From the NCBI RefSeq assembly GCF_040054535.1, contig NC_090783.1, positions 5,188,001-5,252,000 on the forward strand: a stretch of 64,000 nucleotides of DNA. The letters are read 5' to 3'. Numbering within the stretch: the stretch's first letter is position 1; every line of letters starts with the position of its first letter. Of the stretch, positions 5,292 through 63,995 are shown one piece after another. A program made the position numbers and the translations under genes. The DNA comes from Antennarius striatus. Its lineage: Eukaryota > Chordata > Actinopteri > Lophiiformes > Antennariidae. The notes under the pieces are model-generated. The model was not told the DNA's origin. It made no database searches and saw only the letters and a list, made by a program, of their open reading frames with translations.

Positions 5292-5395
<104 letters not shown>

Positions 5396-5750: not shown

Positions 5751-5974
5751 CTCCTCTCCTCTCCTCTCCTCTCCTCTCCTCTCCTCTCCTCTCCTCTCCT
5801 CTCCTCTCCTCTCCTCTCCTCTCCTCTCCTCTCCTCTCCTCTCCTCTCCTCTCCTCTCCTCTCCTCTCCTCTCCTCTCCTCTCCTCTCCTCTCCTCTCCT
5901 CTCCTCTCCTCTCCTCTCCTCTCCTCTCATCTCCTCTCCTCTCCTCTCCTCATCTCTCCTCTCCTCTCCTCCTC
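5751..5974. repeat. (CTCCT)n pentanucleotide tandem array
   Basis: About 36 perfect CTCCT units run to 5930, followed by slightly degenerate units containing CTCAT and CATCT. One strand is all pyrimidine and the other all purine over roughly 220 bp. It has no splice sites or protein homology. Confidence 0.98.
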
Positions 5975-7208: not shown

Positions 7209-7216
7209 CTATATAT
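7209..7216 (+). promoter_or_regulatory. Possible TATA box of the sialomucin-like gene
   Basis: TATATATG lies about 120 bp upstream of the ATG at 7332. That spacing would give a short 5' untranslated region of about 90 nt if transcription starts 25-30 bp downstream. No experimental start site is available. Confidence 0.35.
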
Positions 7217-7331
7217 GCAGGCGTTAAGGAAGAAACGAACTGTATGAGAGCATCACCCCGAGGAGACAACTCTGATCAAATACTGAACATTTAATTCTCT
7301 CTCTCAACTGCTGCTGTCAATCAAACTCACA

Positions 7332-9108
7332 ATGTCATCAATCGCTTGGTCCTTCTTGATCCTGGGTAAGACTTTATTATTCTTTATTATTTTTAATCTG
7401 TGTCATCATTGTTATTATGAGCTAAACAAGACGTAATCAGGACCACACCTTAACATGCGGTGTTTTAGGAGCAGATTCTCCTAAAAATTCATGCTTCTAC
7501 AGGTTAAATAGGGCAGTTTGAGGATGGAGTGAACGTGTGGTTTACGGAATAAGCAAAGAAATTTCAGTGGAAATTGTTTTTTGGTGGTTAAGAGAAAAGA
7601 AGGCACTGGTGCCTGACAGAGAGAGAGGGGGTCTGGGGTTGAAAATCACCTGAAGGCTATAGTTTATTTCTCTCTGTGGAGAGTTTCCATGTTCTCCCTG
7701 TGTCTGCGTGGGTTTCCTTTGGGGTTATCCGGCATCCTCCCACACATTGACTGTATGCATCCTATGATGACCTGGTGACTTGGGTCATTTTCCTGTTTGT
7801 CCACTTCAGTAATTTTTCTTTTCTTGCAGGTTTGGTTGTGGCTTTTGTTGCAGCACAAGAGACATCAACAGTCATGGACAGTAATGCTACTCTCAGTACT
7901 CTGGATTTCTCCAGTACCACCAACATGTCCATCACCAGCAGTGCCATGAACATCACCAACATCAGCACCACACCCTCACTAACAACGAAGGAAGGTGAGG
8001 CCGGTTGTATGCATCATGTAAAGCTTTACAGGTGTCCTTATAAGATTCCATTCATCTTGTCTTCATTTTACTGTTCCTGCCATTATCACCGTCTGCATGT
8101 GGAATAACACGATTCTCTGGTTCAGGTAATGAAAGTCTGACGTCCGCAACACCTTCAACTACTACACACAGCAAAACAACAACATCCAAACCAAGAATGA
8201 AAACGACAAGTAAGTAGAAACTGCTGATCGATATTCACACGAGCGATAGAACAAAGCTCGAATGTCTGAATAGTCCGATAAAGATCAAAAGCTGTATTAA
8301 TTTTAATTATTGAAAGTAAAACAAACAACGAACAAATCGTGGATCCAGCCCTTCGTCTTGATCCACTTCACTCCTGTCTCACCCTACATTTTCTTTGACA
8401 TAGATAATCCTAGTGAGATCTGGATTACATACAGATTAAACATAGACAGACACACAGATGAAGAAATGAAAACTAACTGCATTAGAAATAAAACTAACAC
8501 AACCCTTTAGAGCTATCTAATGAACTAAAAGCCCATTCCAGCTCATTGCAATTTAAACTTTTAATACTTCTCTCAGCGACCACTGCTGAGCCGCTACTGG
8601 AAGCAAACGAGAGCACCGGTGAGTTAAAATTTGAACGTGATTATGCACAATGGTTAAAAACTATAGTTACTATGCTAACGCTACGTATAAACACAAACTG
8701 CCTTTCCTCATCCAGGTATCATCATCTTGGTTGTGATCATCCTGGTTGCTCTTATGTTTGGTGTCGTCTGCTATGTCGTACGGAAGAGAGGAAGGGTATG
8801 AATTTGAATGAATGAGATGAGACTAAAAAAAAGCTTTAGTCTTTAGCTGTAAATGAACACATGACAGAAACAGTCTATACCAGAAACACGAGGGCAGTAT
8901 TGGTTTGACCCTTTATTCAAATAAAGGTGACCTAAAGTGAGATTAGTGAGTTTTATTCTTGTTTTCTATCATGTTAGTAGTTTCCTGTCATGCTAAGCAA
9001 AAACAGAAGCTTCACGTTTAGGCTACAGGCATTAAAGTGCCCTCATTTAAAAAAAAATATATATATATAATTCCACCCCTCTGCTGATTATTGTGATATT
9101 AACATGTG

Positions 9109-9198
<90 letters not shown>

Positions 9199-11876
9199 CT
9201 ACAGCGCTACTCGGTTGACTTTTCCTCCAGACCAGACGAGGCTAACATCCCTCTCAGTGTGATGGACCCTGAGCTGCCTCGTGAGGCCATGCCCCAGAAC
9301 GGTCAGTGCACTGTACCAACAAAGGCAATGGTGTCATGTAAAACATGTGGCAGTGCTCAAATAATTCTGAACAGATTGTGTTATTTTGAGATGGCCGCAG
9401 AAACGTTATTAAACCTGAGCCGTGAACACCTTTCAGGTCTGAAAACCTTTGAAAACCCAGACCCTGCTGCAGGTACGTCGAAAGAACCAGAGGTAAACGT
9501 TGAAGTCCAAGACGAGCAGAAAGGTCAGACCAAAACCTTTTTGTTGTTGTTGTTGTTGTTGTTGTTTTTTTGTTTTTGTTTTTACAGTTCCAACCTCAGA
9601 GAAACGTTGTGAATTTAAGGATATGTTAAGGGCTAATTTTGTAGGTTACATTTTCCTTCCTCTTTTCTAAGGTCAGAATAAAAGGAAGTACAGTTTGTTC
9701 CACCCCTCTGCTCTCAGTATTAACACAGACACCTTGACATAGATTCTTGCAGGCATGTTTAAACCAGACGGAGATGTGTTTTTTTCCCACAACAAGGCAT
9801 TTTGAATGAAAACAAATATGTTTGAGTTTGGTTGTATTTGAAAAAATCTTATAGGAGGAAAATTCTGCATATCAGACTGACTCATACCTGCCTTGAAAAA
9901 CAATTTTGAAATGTCTGTGGAAAGAGTATGCACAACTGACACAAGTGACTTCCTCACTTTGAGACAGGCTTGAAATGAGTCCTGCAGTACTCATGTTGGC
10001 CACCAGGTGGAAATGGAAGCCTAGTAAAGACGAGGTGACCCTTCAAATATCCCACTCTTGTTCTCGTTTCATGAGTGTATTGTTGGGAATAGTTCAAATC
10101 CTAATGAACAAAAAAGTTATTAAATAAGAAATTTTCAAAATCCATATATTAAAAGCCAAAAAGTCACCTCATTGGCAGAAAGAATCTGACTTGTCTCTTG
10201 CTGACTTGCTGACTGGTTTTGATCTCATGCGTTTTAATGATGGACCTCTGAAGAAAAGCAGATGCTTGCCAAATCATGATGCTAAATTACAACATCTTAC
10301 GACATTGTCTGTGACAGGAATTCCCCCAGAGACAGTCATCTTTTGTGCCCAGTATGTTTATTACACCCAAAAACCTGACCCATTCCTCACCCATGACCTC
10401 AGTGAAAAAGTAACGTAGTCTCCCTTCATCATCACAAACCCACTGGTAAAAGATCTTTGGGTTTGGTTAGTAGATAATGTGATCATAGTGCAGTGAACTG
10501 AAACAAGAAGACATTGTTAGACTATAATCAGGTGTGCTCTCATGTATGTGAATTATTTTCTCAGGGAATGAGGTAAGCATGAAACGCAACACAATAATAC
10601 TAAATGCTAATATGTTGCGACAATACAAAAATTCCAGGGTAATGTTTCCCGTGTGCATTAGCATGTTAACATGTCAGGAACATTGCATTCTAGCACACCG
10701 ACTGCAATGTCATGACGTTTGTAGATATTCAGTTTTAAATGCAAGTATTGGACAAAACAAAGTTTTGATATTATGCTGGATCTGCAGACAGGTGTTCAAC
10801 TCAAGGGGGGTTAGTGAGCAGATAGTGGTACAGTAAATAGTAATTGCTAAGTTAAGGTGACACTAAGTGACTTTATCTGTAAGTAACATGTAAGATATTT
10901 TCTTTGTTTGCTCAAAGGTCTAAAATGTTTATTTAAATACTAGAGTTTAACCGATAACAGTTTAAATTACAAGTCAGGTCAAGGGTCTACTTATAATAAA
11001 TGGTCTGGTCATCTGCTATAAACCGAGCAGACGTGGTGATTCTCTGGAGGCCGGAAAGATGCCCGAGGAGATATTTTACTCATGGCAGAATTATGTGCAG
11101 AGTAACAGTCACCTTCTTCTCCCCTTCATCTCCGCTTTCCCTCCACCTAACCCCGGGTCAGATAATGATGGGGCCGCCCTACTTTCCCACAGCCTCCACC
11201 AGCTGTGTGGCTGTGGTTCATTAAGAAGTGGTCAGTAATCAGCTGCCTCATTACCGACATGGTGGCCTCATCATACGCATCTGACGGAGGGAAATCCCCC
11301 TGACAAAACCATCTCGGGCGGTACGAGAGGGAAAGCTGCGATTATGCAGGCGCTACGTACAGAATGCATCCGCCCACATATGAAGTCCTACATGACACAG
11401 ATCGTGGAGCAATGTCCCAGCAACATGACACAATCAATTCATTACAACACTTCAAATTCCTGTTTAACCTACGTAACGGTTTGGCTTTACCAGCGTATCC
11501 AACTGACTCACACCAACGTGTTGTTTTCATTCAGCCACACCTTTGTTTAAGTTTATATACCCAATGACGAAACTGTTTTTAATATATTGATGTCACTGAT
11601 AGCTGAAAAATCAGGATGTGGTTGCCGTTCACAGTTGAACCTGGTGACTCCAGCACAGAGGCGGCGGCGGCGCCTCCCCAGGACAGGGCCGAGAGCGAAC
11701 TTGAAAACGGGGGCGACGCCCGGAGTCCTGCCTCACCTGTGGAGGAGAAAAACATGGAGGAGAAAACCGGTGACGGAGGAGCCGTCTCCGATAAAACGTC
11801 AGAGGAACCGATGAAGGAGACAAATGAGAGCAACAGCAACAACACTGACGTCACTCAGCAGACGGGTTGGAATTGA
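7332..11876 (+). CDS. Mucin-like single-pass type I membrane protein; candidate glycophorin-locus gene
   Basis: Eight exons join in frame to 276 aa: 7332-7365, 7830-7994, 8126-8209, 8577-8618, 8716-8795, 9205-9301, 9437-9523, 11635-11876. Residues 1-21 form a signal peptide split by intron 1. Residues about 22-108 are a Ser/Thr-rich stalk with six N-glycosylation sequons (NAT, NMS, NIT, NIS, NES, NES). A hydrophobic span at about 109-130 is followed by RKRGRR, and the acidic cytoplasmic tail runs to 276. Exon joins are phase 1 except the one after the membrane exon, which is phase 0. I do not recognise the protein by sequence. It lies upstream of frem3 in the same orientation, which is where GYPA/GYPB/GYPE lie relative to FREM3 in human. 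The tail motif PDEANIPLSVMDPE resembles glycophorin A PDTDVPLSSVEIENPE. Against this, the tail is much longer and the membrane span lacks the glycophorin GxxxG dimer motif. Alternatives are another sialomucin or a TMEM154-like protein. The last exon's acceptor is only moderate, so the C-terminus is the least certain part. A possible poly(A) signal (AATAAA) is at 12891. Confidence 0.72.
9106..9194. repeat. (GT)n microsatellite abutting a splice acceptor
   Basis: About 43 uninterrupted GT units end ten bases before the acceptor of exon 6 of the sialomucin-like gene (TTTTCCTACAG, exon from 9205). The transcribed strand is therefore a long UG repeat directly upstream of the 3' splice site. Confidence 0.95.
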
Positions 11877-23072: not shown

Positions 23073-26000
23073 ATGGCTGGTTGTCTGCAAAGTTTGCCAC
23101 TTTGTCAAAGGTGGACACTTTTGAGATCCTTGCTTGTGACATTTGCTCTCAGCTTCTGTTTTGTTTCAGTAAATGCAGAGCCATTTGACCCCGATCACCT
23201 TTATCACCACACAGGACCTAATGAAGACAATATCATCATAGCTAACAATGGGATCCGGGTGCCTTTGGGCAGGTCTGTGTTTCTGGACCCTTTGAATGAC
23301 CTGGTAACAGAAGTGCACCCCGGTGACCGCTGTCATATCACAGTTTTGGACAATGACCCACTGGCCCAGAAACCTGGGATGCTGACCCCTAAGAAGTTCC
23401 CATGCTTGTTTGGACCAGATGAAGTGAAATACATCCATCTTGGATCTCGAAGCCCCAGCAAGGACCGGGTGAAGCTACAACTCCGTTATGATTCCCAGAC
23501 GAAAACGATTATCATCCCATTCATGCTGGAAGTGGAAGTTGTTTTCCAGCAGCTTGAAATCCTCACCAGGAATATGCCCCTTACTGTGGAAAAGCTCCAT
23601 GGTGACAGCAACCCTGTTGATAGGAAAGCATTGGAGTTTTCCTTTGAGGACGGTGTCACACAGTGCAAGATCGGCACTTTTGCTGGCGAAGGAGGTCTTC
23701 CCAGGTATGGCATTCTTTTGAATAACCCCTTAAATGGCCAGATGATTGACTGTGATGAGTTTGTGACACAAGGCATCCGCTACAAGCACACAGCTACAAC
23801 CAACTCACCAAACAGAGACTATATTCCAATGCGAGTAGAGCTGCAGGATAATGAAGGTAACATCATAATGCAAGAGCATTTCCAAATGATGGTTAGAATC
23901 AGAGAAGGGGCAGAAAACACTGCTCCTAAACCCAGCTTTGTAGCGATGATGATGATGGAGGTTGATCAATTTGTGATGACGGCTATTACAAATGACATGC
24001 TAGCCGCTGAAGATGTTGAGTCTGACCCAGATGATTTAATCTTCAACATCACTTTACCGCTTTACCCCCAGCAAGGCTACATTATCAGCACAGACGATCA
24101 GAACCTGCCAATCACCTCTTTCTCTCAGAGAGACATCAAAGATCTTAAAATAGCCTATAAACCCCCCTCAGATGACTCCGAAGTAGAGAGGATTTTCCAG
24201 CTAGAGCTTGAAATTGTAGACCCTGATGGTGCTGTATCTGATACATTTGCTTTTATGATTGTGGTGAAACCGATGAATACCTTGGCTCCTGTAGCGACCA
24301 AAAATACAGGGCAGCTATTGTTTGAAGGACAATCTAGAGCTCTCTCCAGCTCCCAGAATTTAGAGATCAGTGATGAGGATAACCTGGAAGATGTCAGAAT
24401 TACTGTTGTTGACGGCTTAAAGCATGGAGACCTGACTGTGCTCGGCGCTCGGAGGAAATTCTTCACACCTACTGATCTAGACGCAGGAATTGTGGTGTAC
24501 CAGCATGATGGCAGTGATACCTATAGTGACAACATCATCTTTAGAATGACTGATGGCACTAACAACGTCGAATTTTTGTTCCCCATCACTATCGCTCCCA
24601 CGGACGATGAGCCGCCTATCATCAATGCTAACACCGGCCTAGTGCTGTTCAAGAATGAAGTCATGCAGATCTCTCCCTTCATACTGAGTGCCACAGATAT
24701 CGATTCGGAAGATTCTACCATTAAGTTTATCTTGGAAGCACCTTACTCCATTATAGGGGAGCTCTTGCTACGGCAGGTGGAGCCTCCCTCCGACCCGTCT
24801 CTCTGGAAGTTCAGCGAGACAGATGAGATGTTTGAGCAGGTGGTGACTGAGTGGTTTCAGCAGGATATTCTTGATGGAAAGCTCTTCTATCGTCACATCG
24901 GACCCCATAGCACGACTACAGTGATTGATAATTTTGTGTTCCGAGTTCAAGATGATAATGATCCTCCTAATCAATCAGGTGAACACATGTTCACCATCAA
25001 AATCCATCCTGTGGATGATCTGTCCCCAGAACTGTTTGCTGGCACCACCCTTCACATGACAGTACAGGAGTATGAGCTGACTCCATTCAAGAAAAAATTC
25101 TTGTGTTATACTGATTTAGATTCAGATGACAGGGACTTGAAATACACCATTATCAAGAGCCCTACCGACACAGATGAGAATAATCCAGCCCCTTTAGGTA
25201 ACATTGTACTGACTGACAGCCCTGACACTGTCGTCACAGAGTTCACACAGGCCCAAGTCAATCACCACAAGGTAGCTTACAGGCCTCCAAACCAGGAGTT
25301 GGGCATCACTCCAAAAGTGGTTCAGTTCACATTCATTGTGGAAGATACTGCAGGTAACACAGCTGATGGACTCTTTACCATTTTTCTACAGCCAGTTGAC
25401 AATACGCCCCCACTTATCACTAATGCTGGGTTCACCCTTATGGAAGGAGGCACATATGTCCTCTCTAAGAAAGACCTGCATGCTACAGACACAGACACAG
25501 ATAATCAAAATATTGTCTTCACCGTAGTCCAGGCTCCGATCAATGGGAAGCTACAGTATTTGGGGATTGACATGACAAACGGTGAAACATTCATCGTAGA
25601 TGACATCGAAAATGGCCGCATAGCCTACATCCACGGTGGAGCCGAATCCCTCAGTGATGTCATTAAGATTGATGTCAGTGACGGTTTTCATGAAGTTCCC
25701 ATCACCATTAAGATCATCACCGAACCAGTTGATGACGAGACTCCCACCATTATGCTTCCTGACGGTTTGCTCGGAGCATCCATCGATGTACTGGAGAATG
25801 GAGCAACAGAGATAACAAGCAATGTCATTCAAGGTCGTGATGAAGACACAGATGACCTTATGCTTACTTTCATTGTTGAGGAGCCTCCCAGGTTGGGTGA
25901 AATCCTTGTTAATGGTGCTCCTGCTGAGAGATTCACCCAGGAAGATATCATAAACGGCATAGTGGTGTATACTCACACATCTGGTGAGATTGGACCTGTC

Positions 26001-28098
26001 AAAGAATACGACTCCTTCAACATTACTCTGTCTGATTTGTCAGATCAGTGGATGGTGGGTGGCAATAAGGTTCAAGGTGTGACAGTTCATGTCACCATCC
26101 TTCCTGTTGACAGCATCCCACCTATTGTCAGTGTCGGAGAACAGTTTGTTGTCACTGAAGGGGAGAAGAATATCATCACTCTGAACCACATTCATGCTGA
26201 GGACATCGACACTGACAGTGATGATATCCTGTGCACCATCATCGTCCAACCAACATCTGGATATGTAGAGAATATCTCCCCGGCTGCAGGCTCTGAAAAA
26301 TCCAGGGCTGGGACAGCAATCACAGCCTTTGACATCAAAGATGTCGCCCTTGGTCATATCTACTATGTCCAGAGTATCCACAAAGGGGTTGAACCTGAGG
26401 AAGATCGCTTCACCTTCCGCTGCTCAGATGGTATTAATTTCTCAGAACGTCACTTCTTCCCCATCGTAATCATTCCAGCAAATGATGAGAAGCCTGAGAT
26501 TTTCATCCGGGAGTTTGTGGTCATGGAAGGCATGAGTCTGGTCATTGATTCGCCAATTCTAAATGCAGCTGATGCTGACATACCTGGGGATGAGCTGCAC
26601 TTTGAGATCATCAAGAAACCACAACATGGTACCATAGTTCAGCAGCTCAGCACTGGCATGATCCCTGTGGAAAACTTTAACTTGGAACAAATCAAAGAGG
26701 CATCCAATATTGTTTATGAACATGATGACTCAGAGACTAAGGAGGACAGCTTTGTAATAAGGCTCTCAGATGGGAAACATACAGTAGAAAAAACAGTTCT
26801 TATCATGGTTATTTCTGTTGACGATGAGACACCAAGGATGGCTATAAATGATGGGCTTGATGTTGAGATTGGTGAGACAAAAGTCATCAGCAACAGGGTT
26901 TTGAAGGCCACAGATCTGGACTCTGAGGACAAAGACCTCATATATGTTGTGCGTTATGGCCCGGGTCAAGGCTACCTTCAGCGTATCAGCAAATATGGTG
27001 ATGTTTTAGGCAATATTACGTTTGGGATGAACTTCACACAGGACGAAATCGACAAACAGCTCATCCAATATGTGCACACAGGTCAGGAGGGAATCCGTGA
27101 CCTGCTGAAGTTTGATGTCACAGATGGCATGAATCCACTTATCGACCGTTACTTTTACATCAACATTGGAAGCATTGACATGGTCTTTCCAGATGTGATC
27201 AACAAAGGGGTAACACTAAAGGAAGGTGGGAAAGTAACTCTTACCACTGACCTTCTCAGCACCACTGATATTAACAGTCCTGATGAATTTCTCAGCTTTA
27301 GCATCACAAGAGCACCTAGTAGAGGTCACCTAGAGAGCACCGACCATCCAGGTGTTCCCATTTCCACCTTCACCCAACTGCAGCTTGCAGGAAACAAGAT
27401 TTATTATATCCACACCTCAGATGATGAGATGAAAATGGACAGCTTTGAGTTTGAGGTGACAGACGGTTACAATCCTGTCTTCCGGACATTCAGAGTGTCC
27501 ATCACGGATGTAGATAATAAGAAACCCGTCTTGACTATAAACAAATTAGTTGTGGAGGAAGGAGAAACCAAGCTCATCACACCTTTTGAATTGACAGCTG
27601 AGGATCGTGACACTCCAGACAACCTACTACGATTCATTGTCACCCAGGTTCCTGTGCACGGGCAGCTGCTTTTCAACAACACTAAACCCATCACGACCTT
27701 CTCCAAGCAAGACCTAAATGAGAACCTCATCAGCTATAGGCACGACGGCACAGAGTCCAATGAAGACAGCTTCTCTTTCACTGTCACAGATGGTACTCAT
27801 ACGGATTTTTACGTCTTTCCTGACACTGTGTACGAGACCCGTAAACCCCAGATGATGACCATTCACATCAACACTGTGGACAATGGTGTTCCCCAGATCG
27901 TGGTCAACAAAGCAGCTGCCTCACTGAAGGTTCTGCCAACAGGACAACTAGGTTTTTTGATCACCAGCAAAGCCCTTCGATCAGAGGACCGTGACAGTGA
28001 CAAGAGAATCCTAAAATATGTGCTATCCCAGGCTCCCCTTCATGGCTTCATAATGAACACAGCGCTGGGAAATAACAGCATCAAGACCTTCACACAGG
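23073..28098 (+). other. frem3: frem3 exon 1: signal peptide plus CSPG repeat region
   Basis: One 5026-nt exon codes for residues 1-1675, more than half of the protein. The start [14 protein letters not shown] leads into a hydrophobic signal sequence. Repeating units recur about every 110-130 residues, with acidic cores such as TDIDSED, TDLDSDD, TDTDTDN and [13 protein letters not shown] elements, and the pattern V-HDGSD-x-x-x-D-F-F-V-DG. These are hallmarks of CSPG/NG2 repeats; about twelve are expected in the family. The donor is CACACAGG|GTAAGG. The family's single giant first exon is conserved here. Confidence 0.93.
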
Positions 28099-30525
28099 GT
28101 AAGGCACAGTCTCAGTATTTAATGTTTTAGAATAGAATGAAAAGTTATATTGCACAATTAAAATGCCCATATTTGATATGAAAGACATAAAGTAGCTCAT
28201 ATCATCTTTAATTGCAGTCTATGGTCTGCAGCTAGAACCTTATAAGGGGGGCTTTAGTTGTCACAGCTATCTTACTTAACACCATATCTTTATATTTGTC
28301 ACACAAACAGCTGATATTGATGACATGAAGATTTCATATGTGCTTCTGGATGGTAGCAATGCCACAAGTGATATCTTCTACTTCACAATTGAAGACAAAG
28401 GTGGGTAAAGCTTTAATATTTTACACTTCTGAGCATAGACACCAAAATGAGACCCAATACTTCGGAACAACATGACCGAAGGCTATCCTCTAGTGTTTTA
28501 ATGGGTTTTTAAACTTCCTGCTCGCTGTCAGTCTCCCAAGTGTTTGCATCACAAAGACTTAAGGCAGTTGGCCATGACTGACACCAGAGTATAGGTCCAC
28601 TATTTCTTTTTGCCTTACTGGACCAGGTTTAAGAGAAAGGGGTCAAAGGGTTATGTCAAAGGGAATGTGGGTTGCTAAAAGTCGAAGAAGTGGGACTGCT
28701 TCATGCTTTTAAATGTATTGTGAGAGAACAACGGGATCCTTTAGACCAGGGCACTACTCAAATGTTCTTTCTTCTTGTGCCTTGATTGATTCTGTGATAA
28801 AGACTACATGTGAGTTTAAATTTCTACTTGGAATCGGCTTCACAAAGAACAAATTTATCTTTACCTGCAATGGTGCGGAAAATAACTAAGTAAATGTTAT
28901 GATTGTGCATATCTTGGCAATTTTAACCCTGTATATCGTAGATTACATTTCAAATTAAATAATCCGTTTTCACATCTAATTTAGACACCCATCTCATACA
29001 CTTTGGTTTTCAACGGTTTCCAGAATATGATTCTTCTTACAGTCCCTTCTCGTTTTATATAGGCCTCCTTTTTAGAATGCTAATAATATCCACAGGTATA
29101 GCATGACAAACTGTTGGTATATCTATGATCCTGATCTCATCCTGTTAATCCTAAAGAATTATCTTAAATGAACCGCAGATGTATGCACAGACACGATGAT
29201 ACACTGCTGTCATGTAGATTTGCTTGAACAGCGCTATAAATATAGAAAATGTAATAAAAATACAACGGGTGTTTTTTTCTATTTCAGTGTCAGCTGTAAA
29301 ATACAAAATAAAATGTGGGATTGTAATCAATGAAGCAATTAAAGTTTAGTCCATACAGTTTAGTCTCTCATTAATCTAGATTACGGACGACGTTGGTGAT
29401 GATAGGAGCAGTGCTATCAGGGCTATGAGAAGGCAAGAAAAGGATGCTTCTTTTTTTTGACAGGTTACCATCTTTTTGTCAGAAAAAGTGAAGTTTTCTA
29501 TTAGTCTCATTTGTACACAGATTGTTTTTTGAAGGTGATCATTTGTTTTGACATTGATTGATGTAGATAATAGATGTTTTGGGTTTTTTTAAACGGAGGT
29601 TTAAATGGAGGTTTAACTCCCGGAAAGAAACTCGAGGGCCTCAAATAGCTCAACCGTCCCCTCTCTGATTTAAACATGCACCCAAATTCTGAATGGAACA
29701 ATGGTGCATACTGGGACATCAAGCAGATATCTTCCTGAATGACCACAGTTCACATGCATAGGTCAAAGACCGTGATGAATTCAGCTCACACCATAGAATA
29801 CCATTAAATTAAATTAATGTATTATTGTATTTAGCTTGACAATATGTTAGAATAAACTTGCGCGCACACACGTACACAGACATACACACACATAAATGAG
29901 TAAACAGGAACATGAAGTACAAGGGGTCAAATTACAGATAAAAGCCATCTAAACCTAGCAGTGTATTGGTAAATGTGAGTTCCTGAAGACGTGATAACTT
30001 GGGGGGGTGGTACTTACCTGGACAGGTCGGGACATGCAGGAGGAGAGCATACTGAAGGTCAGCTATCTGTTTATAAATCTAAGTTGGTGAGCTGTTGGTG
30101 TCGGAAGAGATTTGTACCCAAGATTATCCCCTAAAAATCGGTCTTTGTTTGAACAGAGTGAAGTTAAAAATGTTGTGTTTGCTTCAACAGATAAAAATTT
30201 TGACACTTTAAAATTTTATATTTGGATCTAATCCAAATACTGGATCAGTAATCCCGCTGAAAAGATAAGTGTCCACTATGATCTTAACATCCATCACTGA
30301 TAAGTCCTTTTTTTTACCCAGGTATTTACATAATCACTGATCATTAATCTTCGTTTCCGAGACAAAGCATTTTCACAACTATGTGGTTAAAGAAGATCTA
30401 ATGTTTGACACGGCTTCAGTGTGACCTCATTTTAGGAAATGACCCTCAGATGCTCTGATATGAGGAGCCGCTTACGGTTATTAGCAACCTCTAGGAGGTA
30501 CCTGTCGCTACATGCTCTGCGCTGG

Positions 30526-30601
<76 letters not shown>

Positions 30602-33600
30602 CCAAACAACAGATCATCAAGGAGTAGCGTCAAAGTTTGGTGTACTGCATAAGGCATCACTGTTGCGTGTGACATACATGTTCTCTCAGCAGCAGCACAT
30701 GTGTGGCCGGCCCACAGGTGAACTGTGTCTTATGAGAGGTCAGGAAGTGCCATTCAGCTTCACACTGGGGGTCTCTGTGTGGACCTGTTGGTCAGCGGTT
30801 ACATTCCAGATTCAGAGGAGTCCTGGACAGCTCTATCAAGTCTGGACACATTAAGATGGCTTTTGGCTTTTGACCTATTTGCTGAAATGTGTTGAGGTTG
30901 CATAAATCATTCACGTGACAGAAGCAGGAAAAAAACAGTAAATCAACCTGAGTAAGCCCCAATGCAGTATTTCTTCACAGATATGTGGATCATGTGCAAC
31001 AAAATATATATGAATTAAGTCATCCTTGTACACTTGAAATGTATATACTGATTTCTCATTTAATACATTTTCAGTAGCTGATACATGTAACTGACAAGTA
31101 GTTTTGTCATGACAGAATTACTACTTTCTTGAATCATATAGCTCTGCTGTTAAAGCTGCAGAAATAAATCAAGAAACATTATTTAGATTTAGTGGGTTGC
31201 ACTTCTTTTTGCTCTAGGTGTGTTGGATTGATTTATCTGATATCTTAACTGCAGCCAACTGATCACTTCTCACAAAGGCGTTGTAAAACACGTACCGAAC
31301 TGTCTTGTTGCCTGGTGATCTCCAGTTCCCATTGGTCGATTGGTTCATTCATCTGTCTGTTGTGAATTTTTCAATGACGAGCAGTAAACTGCAAGTAAAG
31401 TGACCAGGTCAGAGACTCCCTACAGCCATTCAAAACAAGGCCTACTGCAGCAATAAATACTTGTTTTTACAAGTGCATACACGGCTTGCATATCCCTGTC
31501 CATTGGACATGGGCTGAGTGAGCCACGGGCTAAGAAAGAAATCCTTTCTTACTGCCAGACATGTCGAGACATTTCTTTTTCTTAGAATTAGAGGAATAAA
31601 TTAGTGTCAGATATTTTGACCATGGTCAAAGTTGGTCGCAATTTCACTTTGAAATTTATGGCTACAAGATAACTCCAATTTCAAAGCAATATCAATCAAA
31701 CACTACTGATCTAAAGATTGGAAGCTGGAGCAAACAAAGCAGTCAGATAAGTCGGCTCCGTCTCTTTGCTTTTTTCTGATTGTAACGTTTTAGTCTTCGG
31801 GCACCGGAGAGGGATCATAGACCCCAGCAGTGTTATGCGATCATTCAGAACAGGGAGAGGAATGTACTTCCTTAGAGTCTCCAGACTCTGGGGCCGCAGA
31901 CAGAACAGGGCCTGGAAGTAAAGTGGTATCCTGAGCAGACAGGTGTGTACGTGAGAGGGAAGGTTCCAAGCAGATCCTCTTTCAAAGGCCCCCATCTCAC
32001 CACTCTGGGCTCTGCAGAAATCCAACCCAATCCCAGATAGCGTGATAACCTGCAAACTTCCATAGCCAAAGGTGACCACCCTGAGGACACAGTCCGTGAT
32101 TGGGTGCCATAAAATGGGAGAGAATAAGTATATATTTTCTGTGCTCTAATTTGATTTCCGTGAATTTTCCCTGCTGTATGGCAGGAACGCGTGGAGACTC
32201 ACAAAGCCATGTCACACCCAGACTTCCTAACTGTGTTTTGGGATCTTACATGTCACCCATGTCAACAGTCGCTGGGAGATTTACTGACTAATGGTGCCAC
32301 AGGCCTCCTGTGACTAGAAGATGAGGCTTCTTACTCCCCCTCCAGCACTCCCCACTCTGTTCTCACTCCCCCTCTGTCCCCCTCTTAAAGACTCCCTCAT
32401 GGTTTGACTGTGCTTTGGTGAGTTCATCCTCTGACCTCTTCTCTAATTCTTTCTCTTTTCTGTCATAGAGGTTTCCCCATATCCTTCTCAATGAACGTTA
32501 GAATCACCTAATATACTTTCTCTGTCTTTCTATTTAGGTCTTTTTTCTTTTTTATGTCTTTTCCCTCCTTCAACCTTGATTTATGGCAGTTTGATGGTTG
32601 CAGGGTAGGGAGTTATGATGTATGGCTACAGCAGTTATTCTTATCTGCTCTCATATGGCAATGCTGGCGCTGTTGCCACGCTGTCATTGAATGACGAGCA
32701 ATTCCCTAGCTTTTCTGTCATGAAAGATTTTCCAGTTGATATCTAAAGATATAAATGGTTATAAAATATCAATCATCAATCACATCTTTGATCTTTCCTT
32801 TAAATTCCCGGTTGTGATATCATCAAGTCAAATTCTAATAGCTTCGAATAAGCTGGTTAAAATCATGTTGAACAAGTACCCTAATGACTGAGGTGTGAGT
32901 TTGTCAGGGGAATTTTTTTAGCATGCTAATGTTGAACTTCAGCTATTTGATTTCTATGCACTTTTATTTTTTAACACTTCTTGCCATTCAAATTTTGTAA
33001 GCTAGGATCCTGTGTAATCATGATTTTTAACACCCTGTAGCCATCACTTCTCCATCAGTCCCCAAACCAGCAATCCAGCCTCCGTGACGTGTTGATCTGC
33101 AGCACATGCTGCCACTCTCTTGGAGGAATGATTAAGAGTTATTAATACACTGTAAATTATTTATAATCATGCAGCATTCCGAGCATGAATACTTCAGAGT
33201 TCAGAGAGGAAGTTTTACTTTCACTGTAATCAAAAGCTCACTCAATAACATATTATAGATATAGAAATTAATATTCTTCAGTTTTGACCTCTCCATGATA
33301 TAATAGCACATATTTAAAGGAATGCTATTAAATGCCTAGCATAGCTAACTGGAACCTCACAAGTATTTATATCAACCGGATGATTAATGAGGAAATATAA
33401 TAATGGCCATGCTTGTCACTGGATGAGATATTCTTAGAAGGTTGCCCTTCCTTGCATCATGCTTGTGATCGTCAAAGCCTCATTTTAACCTTCTTGTCCA
33501 AACATTCATCCGGCCTGACCCACTATCCCACTGCATCTATGTATGGTGCAGGCGGCAATGCTGTGTAAATATGAGCTCATGAAGAATGTGCTGTCAAAGG

Positions 33601-36600
33601 ATGCTGCTGAAGGGGAAATCTCAAGCGATTAGGCGCTGTGTATTTATTGATGTTGTTTTGCTGAGGGTATCGGATACTTGAAATGAAGAAGGGTATTCAT
33701 TTCCTCACGCTTTGCCTATAATCCAAACACTGGACTTTTACATTCTTGTGTTTTCTGGAACTGATCGCTTTGGTTAAATACATCATCAAAACACAGTTAC
33801 CTCCAGGCCTTTATGTGATTAACTGCTGTTAAATATGTCAAACAGCTTTTAGCGGAGACTTAAAAGGCATCATATGAGTTTCATATTCATCGCCTACCCT
33901 TGTCTGCAGATAACATAAATCACACTGAAGCTAAATTATTAGATAGCTGACAACGCAGACATCGAGAAACATGTGTGGGCTATAAAACTTTTCATCCCAC
34001 AAAAATTATGATAGCTGTCAATTTGAATAGCTAATGGAAATATGAGATGAGTCGGGCAGCTACTGTACGTGTAGGATTTAAAACTCAATCTGGTGAAGTA
34101 AAAGTTCAACCGTAAATCAGGACTAAAATCTAGAACTCACATCAACACATCCATCCACATCGGTCTTTTTATTGGCCATAAAACATTTTCTGGCGGGGAT
34201 CTTTGCTGAGACTCATGCCAGCTCCAGACTCGATGTCTGACATCTACAAAAGGAGCCAGACAAAAGAAAGATTCCCCTCTCTTCCGCGGGTGCGAACAAT
34301 GTGGAGGCACACGGGGGAGGCAGGCCTTGGTGGCGGTTCTGGCCCACCCAGACAGCGGCCTGCTGTCTTCCTCAGTTGTTCGTCCTCTCGGTGAACAAAG
34401 CAAAAACGTGGAGGAAGGGGAACACAGAGCATGGGAGGTTTGTGGAACACAGCTGTCACTACATGGAATCTGGGAGAGGAACCGGAAGGAGGGTTTTGTG
34501 GGACGCGGAGAAAGGAAACAACATCAAGTTTTTTAGTTTTTGATTTACCTTTTTAGGCAATAATAGAAATCTACGGATATCAGGTTCTCATTCATAAAAC
34601 CTCAGCGGTACATGAAGCTAAATCTGCCTGATTACTGGAAGCCCAAAAAGAAGCAGCTTTTTGTCTTCGCTGTGTTAATTTGATAATGGGTGGTGATAAG
34701 CTCCGAATAGTCTTCTCCTCATATCAGCTTCAAATAAGGCTGGCTGCCAGAACACACTCTGCAGCACAGGCACAATCTGAGGGTCCACATTTCCCCAAGA
34801 TTGACATCAGTTCTCAATGAGAAGCAGTGAAGACAAAATTCAGTCAGGCGTTTATATGCACCTACAAACAGGAAACACCTACAATTCATTCTGGTTATCA
34901 TTTTATGCATGTTCTGTATGAACACCTGAAGAACTTGAGACTAGCAAAAACAGACATGTTTCACACTTCCTGTATTTTTAGCTGTGACTCTTGGAAACCT
35001 GAGTATTGAACGTGGCCGAGGGGTGGCTGTCCCCGCTGGGCTCTACATAATCCCTACATAATGCTGCCTTGCCTCCAACCAGGTGCAGGCTTTCACTAAT
35101 TTTCTTTCCATACTGTTTGTGGAAGATGACAAAGGCATAAGACTCACAGATTTCAGTCTATTTAGAGAGGACAATTCTCTCTCTCTGGTCCAATATAACT
35201 CTGACTGTTTTCCCCAAACCGGTGAACTTCCATCCTCGAGTCTTTAATAGGGTTAGGTCACCAGGGCCACTGCAATATATGATCAGTCGTGCAAGAAGCA
35301 GCCCTCTCTAAAGTCCCTGACCAAAGACCCCTCTGAGCTCGACCTATTTCACATGAAAAAGTCACAGGTCAGCAGGCTTGTCTCACTAAAGAAGAAACTT
35401 TCAGACCTTTTGCAGCTGTTGTTAAAAAAACATTCCGATTATGTTGTAGCGCCTATAATCTTAAAAATCTCCAGAGTGACCAGTTTCAAGTCGGTGACCA
35501 CCACCGAGCTGACAGTTTGAGGGATTACATGAGTCATGAGATGGTATGGATTAAGGAAAGGGTTTAAAGTTGTAGGACTGTGGCAGGTGACTGGTAGGGT
35601 GTCGGTTCAGATGTGTGCTTTATGAGTGTGACCGCTTTCCCAGATAATAAAGAAGTATTATAACAAGGTCATAAAGAACTGAAGGTCAAAACTGAATGAC
35701 TTGAAAATCTATGTTAAAGAATTATCTGGTGAATATGGTAAATAATCTGTATTTGTCACCTTTTATTGTCTCTAATGGAAAACAAAACTCACATTAAAGC
35801 ATGAACAGCCAAGTCACTTACAAATTCATGGTATGGTAATTTTTTACCAACAGATCATGTTACAACTGTGTTTCCCTTGTTATAGAGGTGACAGTGTGAA
35901 AGGGCATCAGGTAGAAATGGATGAGAACCAGAGGAAATAAGAAACGACTCATCTTCAGGTCTTCTAAAGTGAAGAAAAGGGAAGTCCTGGTATTAAGTTA
36001 TCATGTTTCCCTCTAAATTAAAATGCCCTTTGAATCCTTTTTACCTTGAGCCAATAGCAGACTGCAGTTTATGCGCCTCAGTGGTTCCTAACATGAACAA
36101 ATAGATGTTTCATTGCTGTGCTGTGCAGTGGAGGATGTCTTTCAGACAAAGGATTGCTCTCACTTTTTTTTCTACGTTTTTTTTAGGTGGAAATAAACTA
36201 AATCCTCAGCCATTCCGGCTCAACTGGGCCTGGATCTCTCTGGAGAAGGAGCTCTATGTAGTGGATGAGGATGCCAAGTTCCTGGAGGTGACGCTCAAAC
36301 GCAGAGGCTACTTGGGAGAAACCTCCTTCGTCAGTAAGTCTTTCGGGCATTAGTTTAGTATCTGTCATGATACAGCATGTGACTATTAGAACTGAACATA
36401 TCCTTTTTTTTATATATACAGTAGATTAATGAACAATAAATAAATGTCTGTTCGAATTTATATCTATGCGTTAGCTTCAGTAAATTTAGCTAAAATAACT
36501 TCAGCCTTTTTGATAAATAATCTGCTTTTCTTTCAAAATTCAAAATTTGTACAAAGACAAAAATTTTTTTATCACCTTATCACTTAAATCTATACATATT

Positions 36601-39600
36601 CAAGTTAAGCTCTTCAAGTCTATCCCCATTAAAATTTAAAATGAACACAACATCGATAAGAACAACAAGCAGAAAGCACAAATCCTATGTGTATGTGTAT
36701 ATGTGTACTTCCCCTCACGCCTGGGGTCTTCTGACTGAGAGCTCATATAACACTTCTTCCTAAAGGTCACAAGGAAAGGCTGACATGCTGGCCTGCTTGG
36801 CTGCAGCAGACATTTGCATGCAAGAGATTTATAACATGTTAACATGCACACGTCTGGCTTGGAAGATGCAAAAAAGTAAAACACACAAATATAAATACAT
36901 ACAAGTATAAATACACACAAATAGATATACAAGTAAATTGATGTATGGATTTTTTTTAAAATGCTCGTGAACTTTTTTGGTTCAGAATCTGCTCATTGTA
37001 CCTGTAGAACATAATTCATGAGACCTATCTTTTAATGTTTAAAACCAAAGAAGTAGTTTCCTAAAATATTATTAAATCATCAATCATTAAATCTCTTGCC
37101 TTACTGTTTTTTGTCAGGTATTGGCACTGTAGATGGGACAGCTAAGAAGGACAAAGACTTCCGTGGTAAGGCCCAGAAGCAGGTCCAGTTCAACCCTGGT
37201 CAGACTACGGCGACTTGGAAGGTGAAGATCTTCATGGACCAGGAGTTTGAGAACTCGGAGACCTTTCAGATTAAGCTGTCAGACCCAGTCATGGGTCTGT
37301 TGGAATTTCCTGACGCTGCAACGGTCGAGATTGTTGATCCTGGAGATGGTACATCTATTACAGTCAAACATTAAAACACATGTAATTTAATGATAACATT
37401 TCTTGAATGTGATTATTCATTATTTGTCCTTCTCTTCCCAAAACAGAATCGACTGTCTTCATTCCTCAAGCAGAGTACAAGATTGAGGAGGATGTGGGAG
37501 AGCTGTTAGTTCCGGTGCGGCGCTCAGGAGATGCCAGCCAGGAACTTATGGTGGTCTGCTACACCCACCAAGGTGAAATGAAAGTGTTTGCACTTATTTT
37601 TGCAAAATAAGATGTGTCAAAGAAATGTTTCTAATATGTATGTAAAAACATGTATTTTTGGATACTAAAAATGTAAATGCTTATCTATTTTCATAAGGTT
37701 ACGACATCTGTATTTATGCATTGTATCATCTCTTCTCTTTTGAATTCTGTGACCTCATGCTATTAGCATCTCCACAGTAATAGATGAAGTCTCAAGTTTA
37801 ACCCCCTGTGTTCTCTCTTCCTATCATTCCTCAGGCACGGCGACAGGCACCATACCCAGCACTGTGCTGTCCTACTCTGATTACATCACTCGACCTGAGG
37901 ACCACACCAGCGTGCTGCGCTTCGACAAAGATGAGCGAGAGAAGCTCTGTCGCATCATTATAATAGATGACTCCCTGTATGAAGAGGAAGAGAGCTTCAA
38001 CGTGAGCCTCAGCATGCCCATGGGCGGCCAGGTGGGCGCCAATTTCCCAACCGCCAAGGTCACCATCCTGGCAGACAGTGATGATGGTAAGTAGATTGGT
38101 ATGAATTTATGGTCAATTGAGGAGATCTTAGAGAAGAGCATTGACAATTTATTGTTAGATTTACTGTCATCTCAGAGGCCTGGGTCACAGTTAACCACCT
38201 AAATACAGCTAAGATACTTTTTTTTGGGTCTGTTTGCATTTTATTTTTCAGCCTTTTGATGTGTTAGCCTTACCTCAGGTTGGTGCCATTGTTTCTTGAA
38301 TACGCCTTTGACTTGGATCCATTGGTTATTCATGAAACTTTTTGAGAATTTAATGACAGGCCATAGTTAAAAGGCTACTGTAGGTCATGGTTGCAGGTGT
38401 GAGTGATTCTGTCTGCATACTATTGAGCTACCAAAGGTGCACAGGAAATACAAAAGCATCAGACTCCAAAAACAAAAGCCCTCCATACTACTTCCTGTAA
38501 TGGCTTCACAGTATATTGTGTAGTCCGTCTGCCTGTCTCTGTCTGTCTTTAAGTGGCAGGAACAGGACAACACCACACAGGTGTTAAGAGGGAGAATGTG
38601 GCCTCATTGTGTGTCAGACAAGGCTACACTGACAGATAAATGGACTTCAAACCCCATTGCGCCCCTCAAGCGATCCCCGTCCTCATTGGCATTCAGGGGA
38701 GCTCGGGGGAATCAGAGGGTATCCCTTTGTCTGGTGGAACCAGAAGACAGGTGGTGGAGAAGAGGGCATATTGTGTGTGGAATCTAAATGACTGGTATGT
38801 TTACAGTCTTTCAGGAGGTTTTCAAGCCAAACTTCTTTTGTTTGAGTTGATCCACTGAAGAAAATGTCTCAACAAATATGACAAATTGGAAACTTCAAAT
38901 TCCTAACAATCCTCAAGGTCATCCAACAGGAGAAAATCAGTCCACTGGACTCATAGAGAGTTCCTTGAGAACATTTCACCTTTCATCCAAGAGGCTTCTT
39001 CTGTGAACGGAAGAAGCCTCTTGGATGAGAAGATTGATTTGTGGATTGATCGAAATGCCTTTGGATAGCCATGACTTGCTTGAATTAGAACCTTCACAGA
39101 CAATCCTCACAGTCCTTCGTCTATCTGACTAGTCTTGTTTACTCAACTTCAAGTTCCCCCACAAGATGTCCAACCTTTCACCAGAGGTACTTTCTCATCA
39201 TTACATACCTGGTCACAATGCAAACATTCTTTCCATTCAATTTGCAACAGAAACACAATTGATCTTTATGCATAAAAGATCAGCATTCCTAGACATGTGA
39301 CGAGAAAAGAGAAAATTTGTGAGTGGAGATCTTTATTATGTTATACTTCTTGGTGGGTCCTGGAGTAACAACCCACCATAAATCTGGTTTAGTGTGTGTG
39401 AATGTCTGTGTGTGTTTGTGAGAAATCAAGTGCCTGTCTGGGTAAACTTGTCGTTTGGATTCTCTCCAGCATTAAGGATGCATTGTCTATCTGCCTCTTC
39501 CTCACACTGATCTTTAAAGTTGCCATGTAGGCACTCGTTGCCCTCATACAGCCGAGTTATTAAGTAGCTGGCTCCGACGCTGGAAGCTTTTGAACTTGTG

Positions 39601-42600
39601 CCAACAGTCCTCCATCAGTCGTCTGTTGCAGCATCACCAGTAAGCACAAGTGGTGAAGACATCATTCAGTGTCAGCAAAAAACAGTCAAGTATTTTAGAA
39701 TCAGTATACAGTATTGGGTTTGCTAAGATTACCTATCGTTAGCCGCCACAAGCTACAGGGAATCCTACCTGACAAAATAGTGGGAAAACTCGAGTCTTTA
39801 GAATTTACTTTTTTCTTGTCAGCATTTATTGGGATCAATCCTCATGGAATACTGTAAAGATCTTTTATAATTTACTTTTTTATCATTTAAAAATCCAAAT
39901 TGAATGTTTATTTTTTCAGGGCAGTTTCCTAACATTTAGACACAAAAAGAGACTTTTTCACCTCGTAGCAATCCAAATACACTTGTTGACCTTACCTATA
40001 AAACACTGGAAAATGATTGACTTAGCATTCATGAATCTACAAGCTAATGTGAGTAATTACAATTTATGAACCTATTACAAAGGCTGTCTTTAAATTGTTG
40101 CTTCCGCGTCTCTTCATATTTGTATTGTGTACTAAAAAGGTTTAAGTCTTTCACTAGCATCTCTATCCACTGACCTTGAATAGCACTGGCTGAAAATGCT
40201 TTATATGTAAGTGAGGAGAGATAAATGGACCTAGAGTTCCAGAGGTCTGAATTCTTGCCCTCTGCTTTTGCAAATTAGATAGTTGCCTTCTTGTCTCTGC
40301 CAAACCTTTACATAGTGTTTATCAGCAACTCTATCATCAAAACCCAGGAACATCTCTTCACTCTTGCACATGCAAGCATACACCCTATTATTCAGGTGTG
40401 TACCAGGCCTTCTGGCATTGAGCTCAGACAGGGCTGTCTGGATTTAGATAAGTGGGGGAGTAAGGTTGAAGGATAGAACCGGATAAGGGAGATCACAGCT
40501 CTCTTCCTGTGTGACTCAGAAATTAACGAGTTTGCACAGCTCCTTGTGATAATTTGTAGCTGAACCTAGTTGTAAAGCTTGAAAAGTCTGTCATGGAAAT
40601 ATCCTTGGACTCCTTACTTTACCTTTCAGCAAGACACTTTTACTATATTATAATTGGTATGACAAAATGTCATCATGATTAGTGTTTTTCACGTGTCGAT
40701 TTGGCATACAGCAGTGTGATTCATTCAGTAAGAAAGTACTGTATTGATCTTAAGGAGTTTAGAAATGGTCTTAATCTTAATCTTAAAACTGTCCTATCCC
40801 ACAGAGCCCTCGCTGTATTTTGGGGAACCTGAGTATGTTGTGGATGAAAGTTCAGGCTACGTTGAGGTGAAGGTTTGGAGGACGGGAACTGATCTATCCA
40901 AGGTAGCTACTGTGACCGTCCGGTCGAGGAAGAGCGACCCGGTTTCTGCAGAAGGTAACACTGGCTGTTCATCAGAAGGAAGAACCCAGAGTTGTGACTT
41001 TGCATTTTACAGTTTCCGTTCTGTTTGGCAGCTGGATTAGACTATGTCGGAATCAGTCGCAACCTGGACTTCGCCCCCGGGGTGACAATGCAGACATTTA
41101 GAGTCACTATTCTGGATGATCTGGGCCAGCCTGAACTGGAGGGGCCTGAGACCTTCGACCTTGTGCTACGGATGCCCATGAATTCTGTGCTGGGAGAGCC
41201 GAGCAAGACCACCATCACCATCAACGATACGTTCACTGACTGTAAGTGCCAAAGACACACTTAGAAAATGGTTATGGGTGCCCAAGCGTAAAGAAGCATT
41301 ACACTGTAATCTGAGATGATGTGAGATATATTCTACCAATGCTGGCAGGTATTTAAACTGAGTTAAATAATTGGGTAATCTTATCTTATTCTTTGATGTA
41401 TAATGTAACCTAATTGAATAAACAATAAATAGTTACATAACACACTACAATGCTGTGACCGAGAAGATGTACCTTACTGATTAATTAATAATAATTTCCC
41501 CTCGGGATTATTAATGTATTCTTCAGCTTCTTCTTTTATCTTCATCAAGTATAATAGCAGATCCATTAATTAAATATACAAATCCTCTCAAAATACATTT
41601 TCATTGAACATCTTAATTAATGTCCTGATGTGGGTCAAAAGCTGCTTTAGTAAATTTAACAAAACATACATTTTAAAAAATATATTTTTTTCATTGTATC
41701 TATTGTTGTATGTTATTATTATGATATAAACCATTTAAGTTAGAGTTCACACATATAGTCAGGGATTCATACACTCCCCCAAATGTATTTCAACTTCTAA
41801 CACTTTTTTTTTCTATCATTGCAGTGCCAAAGGTACAATTTAAGGAGGGAAGCTATAAGGTAGATGAATCTGATGGGGAAGTAAAGGCTATAGTGTTCCG
41901 CAGCGGAGACATTAATGTCAGGTCAACGGTGCGCTGTTACACTCGTCAAGGCTCTGCTCAGGTCATGATGGACTACAGTGAAAGACCCAATACAGACGCA
42001 TCAATCATCACTTTCCTGCCAGGTGAGTCTTCCCTCTTAAAGTCCTCCTCCACCCAACCCCTGTGTGCTGTCACATTTACACTAACCATCTATCTACAGG
42101 TGAAACTGAGAAGCCATGTGTGGTTAGCCTGATGGATGACACCATCCATGAGGAGGATGAGGAGTTCCGTCTTGTCCTTGGAACTCCCAAGAGCAAGTCT
42201 CCACATGGAGCTTCTATTGGGGAGCAAAAGGAGGTGCTGATCACGGTCACTGATGAGAAAGACAGTATGTATCCTATCAACAGACAAAAAAAATGTAATT
42301 ATTTTAAAATATCCGACTGCAAAAATTCTCTCATGTGATTCAAAGAATGGGAGTAATAATCATCAGATATCTGTCTGTCTGTCTCAGTTGTTTTATCCCT
42401 TATTAATTCAAATTCTCCTCTTCGTCTAGAGCCAGTCATCCGTTTTTCTGAGATCAAGTACAGTGTACGTGAACCTCAGGTCAAAGGAAACGTGGCTATC
42501 GTGAGAATTCCCATCCTGCGTGTTGGGGACACGTCGAAGGTCTCGGTGGTGAGGGTGCACACGAAGGATGGCTCTGCCACCTCTGGAGACGACTACAACC

Positions 42601-48987: not shown

Positions 48988-56776
<7,789 letters not shown>

Positions 56777-57398
56777 TTTTATCGAATTCCCTCTACGATT
56801 CAAAGATATATTGTCCGTTATTTGTTGCCTTGTGTGATCCCGTGTTTCTGCCCGTTTGAGATTCTCCGCTCTTTGAAGCTATGAAGACCAGCTATCTTGT
56901 TGTTTATAATGAAAGGCGCACCGGTTAGTCACAGGAACACGTTCGCGCTAAGGAAGATTGTTGTCGGGCCCGCGCGTTCCCGTTGTTGTATCGCGAGACT
57001 TGGCTTTGCTTCCGTCAAGACAGTTTCTACTGTTTATTCTACGGTACTGTGTTAAAAAAGGTGAGCAAATAATTTATTAGAAAAGTCAAAGATTTGGCCA
57101 CCAAAATGGTCTAAAACAAAAACTGAAATTGTATCTATTTTAGTAAAAACGTACTCTGGGAACAGTCCAATGCGAATTTGTGATTGATAGATCTATTTTG
57201 TTTTGCACAACTTGCATAGCACCTGATATTAATGCGGAAAAATAAAATTTCTATATCATATGCCAGTATATTTTATATATATGTTACACTGTAATGCTCA
57301 ACTGAAATTCGGGCCTTCACCACATTTCCACATACACAGTGCACCTAATATGTCAAATCTGCATATTTCCATGAAATAGATGCCTGCATATTATGAGT

Positions 57399-58413: not shown

Positions 58414-58796
58414 GACTTCGATAAATGTGAGAAATGCTTCAGAATTGAGACATAACTTTGACATAAAATTACTTCTTAATGTCGAGGAAAAATAAGGCAT
58501 TTATCATTTGGGATAAAAGAGGAAAATGAATTTGGGATATTTCAAAGATGACAAGGATCTGAAAACCTGGAACTCGTATAGATGTACATTATGCAATAAT
58601 TGTTAAAAAAAAAAGATATGCTGTGTATTTAATTTTTTTTATGTATGTTTAAAAACAACCACAAATGAGACCTTCCTATTTATGAAAAGCACAAGTTCTT
58701 CAGTAATATAATGTTAAATTAAAATTTTGTCAATGAGTAGTGTCAAAATCACAGAATGTGACTTTATAAAACTATTATTTCTTGCAGATATCCACC

Positions 58797-61700: not shown

Positions 61701-61903
61701 TGCCTGGACGTCTCAGTCCAACTCGTTCGGCTCGGGTCTTCTGAGGCACGCTGTGAAATCAGAGACGGGAAAAACGGGTCTGGTCAACCTGGGGAACACC
61801 TGCTTCATGAACAGCATCATCCAGACCCTCTTCATGGCCACGGAGTGAGTTGTGTCTGCAAACGTCACACACATGCACGCACACACACACATACACACAC
61901 ACA

Positions 61904-61945
<42 letters not shown>

Positions 61946-63825: not shown

Positions 63826-63873
63826 GTATGCAAGGGTGAACCGAGGACTCGCTGTTTCCTTATACAGCCATTG

Positions 63874-63995
63874 TTACAATCCGCTTCAAAGCGGTGATGT
63901 AATTGTCAGTGTTTGTGTGTTCGACTGTTCGTCAGTCCACCAAATATCTTCACAACAGTTGCAGATAGAAAGATGAAACAAAATGCACATTACTC
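63874..63995 (+). repeat. Dispersed repeat fragment in the last visible usp38 intron
   Basis: TTCAAAGCGGTGATGT and TTGTCAGTGTTT are shared with 19932-19967, in the same order and spacing. The segment continues with GTCAGTCCACCAAATATCTT and ATGAAACAAAATGCACAT, the words of a fish interspersed repeat that I recall but cannot name. Confidence 0.5.

Follow-up and report, generated by a model that had tools for sequence, protein, structure and literature searches.

Carp and chicken glycophorins are sialylated, O-glycosylated membrane glycoproteins of the red cell; the carp sialoglycoprotein bears O-glycans and N-glycolylneuraminic acid and has bacteriostatic activity (PMC4194046, PMC4289865, PMC5746815). 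Fish and chicken red cells contain glycophorins in this biochemical sense, and no gene is named for them in the sections cited here (PMC5746815, PMC4194046). An antibody to glycophorin C has been applied to trout red cells (PMC5946108, part of the paper). Among the titles listed in the open-licence literature, none described a gene from fish at the glycophorin locus, genome annotations being outside this scope. In humans, GYPA, GYPB and GYPE are located between HHIP and FREM3, with SMARCA5 beyond, within the order MMAA–SMAD1–HHIP–GYPA/B/E–FREM3–SMARCA5–USP38, which also includes OTUD4, ABCE1, ANAPC10 and GAB1. Here, we describe a sialomucin-like gene from a 64,000-nucleotide (nt) stretch of the Antennarius striatus genome (GCF_040054535.1; NC_090783.1, termed contig C8 here, 5188001–5252000), referred to as the window. 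It is most likely, with a probability of about 0.64, a teleost type I sialomucin gene, for which no second copy was found, that is the positional homologue of glycophorin A/B/E.

Reconstruction of the gene from raw sequence gave eight coding exons (831 nt, 276 amino acids) at 7332–11876 on the forward strand. In window positions these are:

7332..7365, forward strand: coding exon 1, start codon and first part of the signal peptide with a hydrophobic start; ends in phase 1 at a GT donor
7830..7994, forward strand: coding exon 2, remainder of the signal peptide and Ser/Thr- and N-glycan-rich stalk; phases 1 to 1
8126..8209, forward strand: coding exon 3, Ser/Thr-rich stalk; phases 1 to 1
8577..8618, forward strand: coding exon 4, juxtamembrane, 42 nt; phases 1 to 1
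8716..8795, forward strand: coding exon 5, 80 nt, encoding the membrane span together with the first basic residues; phases 1 to 0
9205..9301, forward strand: coding exon 6, containing the PDEANIPLSVMDPE stretch and the last part of the juxtamembrane R-GRR-Y-S-V motif; phases 0 to 1
9437..9523, forward strand: coding exon 7, acidic cytoplasmic tail; phases 1 to 1
11635..11876, forward strand: coding exon 8, acidic tail and stop codon

All seven introns had GT-AG borders, and the sole stop codon was the terminal one. The intron phases were 1,1,1,1,0,1,1 and the exon start phases 0,1,1,1,1,0,1,1; a possible alternative in-frame acceptor of exon 8 was located 24 nt inward. A codon score trained on the frem and usp open reading frames (ORFs) of the window amounted to +82.5 for the gene's own frame, to −100.7 and −94.6 for the other forward frames (10 and 17 stops, respectively), and to −29.1, +5.2 and −138.4 for the reverse frames (9, 3 and 15 stops). 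None of 20,000 random concatenations of nearby sequence was stop-free, and none of the 20,000 matched the codon score of the gene. Exon structure and codon score are therefore far beyond chance expectation, and the gene, which an earlier note on this stretch had proposed at 7332..11876, is real.

The predicted protein started with a signal-like hydrophobic N-terminus, followed by a stalk of approximately 88 residues containing 48% Ser and Thr and six N-glycan sequons (assuming signal cleavage after residue 20). Hydropathy analysis revealed one strong membrane span at residues 109–127 (Kyte–Doolittle peak of 3.3) with a single cysteine close to its inner end. The cytoplasmic tail of 146 residues was acidic (net charge −16) and began with RKRGRRYSVDF. 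Hydropathy, composition and sequons thus agree with the signal peptide, the Ser/Thr- and N-glycan-rich stalk and the single span put forward in the earlier note.

The genomic position supports homology. The 120 kb upstream of the window were scanned for codon signal, and the neighbors were then named by sequence matches. The nearest upstream neighbor was HHIP (PDB match with E = 4.4e-22 over 60 residues; Folate_rec with 8.7e-07, slightly under the curated cut-off), preceded by an R-SMAD MH1 domain (SMAD9, 1e-85; SMAD5, 1.6e-83; SMAD1, 9.9e-83) and a match to MMAA (E = 3e-34). On the other flank, three genes were recognized in the window:

23073..47666, forward strand: frem3-type gene, from first to last recognized coding ORF; Frem_N with E = 3.9e-98, and Cadherin_3
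49501..56878, reverse strand: smarca5-type (ISWI ATPase) gene, approximate, from ORFs; ORF 54092–54358 with a PDB match at E = 3.2e-28
58770..63897, forward strand: usp38-type ubiquitin hydrolase gene, approximate; UCH with 1.1e-20 for 62389–63894

The order observed was MMAA, SMAD1/5/9-type, HHIP, sialomucin-like gene, Frem, SMARCA5-type and USP-type; the matches fix families only and do not separate FREM3 from FREM1/2, SMAD1 from SMAD5/9, or SMARCA5 from SMARCA1. Of the further genes in the human order, OTUD4, ABCE1, ANAPC10 and GAB1 either did not turn up or were not looked for. The frem gene lies 3′ of the sialomucin-like gene in the same direction and the ISWI gene beyond it on the opposite strand, as the earlier note had read from the window, and the orientations of HHIP, the sialomucin-like gene, frem and the ISWI gene were those expected from human, with the human arrangement as background. 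The gap to the frem start was approximately 11 kb and that to the nearest recognized HHIP exon (C8, 5155399) approximately 40 kb, though the first exon of HHIP may be nearer. Inspection by eye of the codon scan and the window ORFs, in which weak segments were not individually checked, revealed no further gene in the HHIP–frem interval. Thus, the sialomucin-like gene occupies the place of GYPA/B/E between HHIP and the Frem gene, the human order again being general background. Since both flanks were identified, with HHIP, the SMAD1/5/9-type gene and MMAA on the side not considered before, the positional argument is stronger than the one-sided case made earlier.

The exon layout points in the same direction. 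Human GYPA exon 4 measures 39 nt, the other phases of the human GYP genes are as in the fish gene, and the exon whose end is numbered in the c.270+5 variant cited below is presumably GYPB exon 5. In the fish gene, a 42-nt exon was followed by the 80-nt membrane exon with phases 1 to 0; the human counterpart derives partly from papers and partly from general background. According to the sections cited, the human membrane span is encoded by exon 5 of GYPA and GYPB (PMC9653601), and the splice variant GYP.He(P2) is c.270+5G>T, a numbering from which it follows that an exon ends at a codon boundary (PMC12531907). One membrane exon from each of four sialomucin-type families in the same genome served as control: the TMEM154-type exon had 186 nt and phases 1 to 1, the podoplanin exon 109 nt and 1 to 2, the CD34-family exon (one of several matches) 180 nt and 0 to 0, and the PARM-like exon, whose gene scored below the Pfam cut-off, 79 nt and 1 to 2. 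None of the four control exons had phases 1 to 0. The membrane exon phases, which appear to match those of human GYP genes, give moderate support for homology.

Several points weigh against a relationship to glycophorin A. Evidence from the exons is of moderate weight: introns of phase 1 are widespread in extracellular exons, the controls were few (n = 4), and the comparison with them did not include the exon preceding the span. A sequence relationship was sought with a 70-residue membrane-tail piece of human GYPA (letter-for-letter match to PDB 7uz3). Its local alignment with fish exon 6 gave a score of 28, a value that 558 of 5000 shuffled fish peptides and 830 of 5000 shuffled human peptides also reached; the alignment over exons 6–7 was equalled by 1018 and 1663 of 5000 shuffles, respectively. 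Ranked against the human tail, the exon-6 ORF came 19th of the 2121 six-frame ORFs in the window, and 24th with the span included in the query. The tail alignment with human GYPA is therefore at chance level by both shuffling and ranking, and the tail motif, in which the earlier note had seen a match to glycophorin A, was rejected as evidence of homology. The Pfam profile PF01102 (Glycophorin_A) recovered the human piece at 2.3e-37 and gave no match at E ≤ 10 to the fish protein or its membrane-tail piece; a PF01102 search of the genome (548 Mb assembly, 42 contigs) yielded no match either, which is little informative as the control genomes were also negative. GxxxG was absent from the fish span, where only A-LMF-G occurs, and the fish tail was about four times longer than that of GYPA (146 versus 36 residues), two caveats that had been raised beforehand and that the protein indeed displays.

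The remaining points concern the link to red cells. In the part of the carp study cited, the glycophorin has a different composition, with 14.7 mol% Lys and 8.72 mol% Arg (PMC4194046), and its composition correlated with that of the fish protein at only 0.52. The composition of human glycophorin A correlated with that of the fish protein at r = 0.85 (16 residue groups; second human column of Table 2, PMC4194046), a point in favor of homology. Carp composition was consequently rejected as support owing to the poor fit (r = 0.52), which counts against a direct identification with carp glycophorin. The Lys/Arg-rich carp preparation, obtained from nucleated cells, might contain other proteins. In the region 6332–7431, WGATAR was not found, and neither was a KLF-type site. 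One E-box/GATA pair occurs within the gene near 8083; it was not set against a control and was not used as evidence.

The strongest competing explanation is that an unrelated, lineage-specific fish sialomucin came to lie between HHIP and FREM3 by chance and resembles GYPA by convergence of low-complexity mucin sequence. It accommodates the lack of detectable sequence similarity to GYPA in profile searches and shuffled alignments. It also gains from the own-genome search with the gene, in which the best match outside the gene (E = 0.003) covered the span and basic tail of an unrelated LRR/EGF membrane protein on contig C16; span and basic-tail resemblance is therefore cheap. On the other side, a short, Ser/Thr-rich, single-pass gene in exactly this place and orientation, its 1 to 0 membrane exon preceded by a small one, would amount to a double coincidence, provided that the human exon sizes are right, and we regard chance convergence as unlikely, though as the most serious of the alternatives.

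The C16 protein, located near 12.796 Mb (locus L016, 1–1794) and presumably vasorin-like, is the best non-self match and appears as a case of convergence at the juxtamembrane region; it was rejected as a relative, as was a match on C7 with three internal stops. Another match was present on C17.

A member of another sialomucin family (TMEM154, podoplanin, PARM1, CD34/podocalyxin, CD164 or glycophorin C) might instead have moved or been duplicated into the interval. Whole-protein Pfam searches gave, as best matches, Podoplanin (PF05808; E = 0.0025, 18.5 bits versus a cut-off of 30) and MLANA (E = 0.0044, 17.7 bits versus a cut-off of 27), and the membrane-tail piece gave weak matches to both (MLANA, 0.0016; Podoplanin, 0.63). 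These matches, all sub-cut-off in the whole-protein search, speak for such an origin, as does the likeness of the juxtamembrane RRYS to podoplanin RRMGKYS. The TMEM154 profile PF15102 did not match the fish protein or its membrane-tail piece at E ≤ 10, and the CD164 (MGC-24) profile PF05283 gave no Pfam match to the fish protein. Furthermore, four of the families have loci elsewhere: a TMEM154-type locus on the same contig at 4.25 Mb, 0.94 Mb from the gene (the only one examined of 41 matches in the TMEM154 genome search, of which three were over the cut-off, with one control genome positive), a podoplanin locus on C2, CD34-family matches on C22 and C5, and, on C15, two weak PARM-like matches below the Pfam cut-off. 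The one examined of each had other membrane-exon phases. Of the rivals named in the earlier note, TMEM154 is thus disfavored by its own locus and different phases, and for PARM1 only the weak pair on C15 was found. In glycophorin C, span and tail share one exon, unlike in the fish gene. Exon 3 of glycophorin C comprises residues 36–63 in the section cited (PMC6591965). Taken together, derivation from another known family is very improbable. Near the TMEM154-type gene, an ORF for a membrane RING-CH protein, which we take to be MARCH-type, was observed on C8 near 4.244 Mb (locus L030, 1067–1783).

Just as improbable is an ancestral sialomucin of this interval that was distinct from GYPA and lost in mammals, GYPA having arisen separately nearby: a long tail with a FERM motif, closer to PSGL-1, CD43 and ICAM-2 than to glycophorin A, would suit it, but it requires two independent sialomucins in an interval where one was seen (by eye) and no second copy was found.

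It is thus position and exon layout, and not sequence, that make homology to the glycophorin A cluster likely. The fish relative of the glycophorins suggested by the earlier note is partly supported, by position and, moderately, by exon layout, and finds no support in the tail motif or in sequence homology. As the PF01102 profile gave no match, we class the gene as a sialomucin that occupies the glycophorin locus rather than as a glycophorin. A search of solved structures with the fish protein gave no match at E ≤ 10, and contigs from prokaryote genomes and from viruses yielded no relatives of the gene, an outcome to be expected for a gene of vertebrates.

The protein anatomy suggests how the product of the gene may work. 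The stalk would be densely O-glycosylated and sialylated and form a negatively charged rod standing off the membrane. At the inner side, the fish tail contains R-GRR-Y-S-V, which conforms to the ERM-binding rule of a basic cluster followed by (R/K), two or three residues, (Y/L)-x-(L/V/I) (PMC7073024); when the first 20 residues of the tail were shuffled, the pattern arose in 879 of 20,000 cases, and it was not found in the human GYPA tail. The motif suggests FERM anchoring of the tail: a FERM-domain protein of the ERM or band 4.1 type may dock there and tie the rod to the cortical cytoskeleton. A GxxxG-type membrane dimer as in human glycophorin A would not be expected. The protein may be part of the glycocalyx of fish blood cells, perhaps red cells, where it would limit cell adhesion and meet microbes. 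Sialic acid of glycophorin A contributes to a negative glycocalyx that prevents cell adhesion (PMC9653601, in the part cited), and by analogy the fish protein would act like this anti-adhesive coat. Red-cell expression of the fish gene is a guess that could fall either way. More tentative still, and on balance doubtful, is the proposal that the gene is the true bony-fish orthologue of the glycophorin A cluster and encodes the sialoglycoprotein purified from fish red cells. If it were the true orthologue, glycophorins would be older than mammals by hundreds of millions of years, and an ancestral cytoskeletal tie through the FERM motif would have been lost in mammals when the tail became shorter and the GxxxG dimer evolved. 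With a syntenic candidate for the gene of fish red-cell glycophorin at hand, the question of origin can be tested directly.

Some further features of the window were recorded. The usp38-type gene, on the forward strand, appears flipped relative to the human order, and no coding sequence of GAB1 type came to notice between the usp38-type and SMARCA5-type genes; a small local rearrangement around the usp38-type gene is possible. Fragments of GRRPRGRPKKRFMDV-type ORFs at 57375–57548 and 59727–60475, on either side of the first usp38-type exon, look like LINE-type reverse transcriptase tails, an assignment we assume from resemblance. A long CTCCT pentanucleotide array was present at about 5750–5970, and (CA)n/(GT)n arrays at 1156–1270, 1572–1696, 5290–5394 and 9107–9194; one (GT)n array is located directly upstream of the exon 6 acceptor of the sialomucin-like gene.

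Compared with described systems, the gene resembles several of them in part. The carp and chicken glycophorins are known, in the sections cited, by composition, gels and glycans only. TMEM154 is likewise a short type I protein with an acidic tail, encoded on the same contig, but it has its own locus, a 186-nt membrane exon with phases 1 to 1 and a different tail. PSGL-1, CD43 and ICAM-2 have in common with the fish protein a basic juxtamembrane cluster and the ERM pattern (PMC7073024); no sequence relationship beyond this motif was sought or found. From GYPA/B/E, the fish protein differs by the lack of a PF01102 match and of GxxxG, by its tail of 146 versus 36 residues without significant similarity, by a FERM-type motif that is present in the fish protein and not in GYPA, and by six stalk sequons versus one N-glycan in human (PMC9653601, section cited). 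What the fish gene and GYPA/B/E have in common is a signal peptide, a Ser/Thr-rich stalk, one span and a cytoplasmic tail, and apparently also a membrane exon of its own that closes at a codon boundary. They also share locus and orientation and, apparently, a small juxtamembrane exon, with the human side as background.

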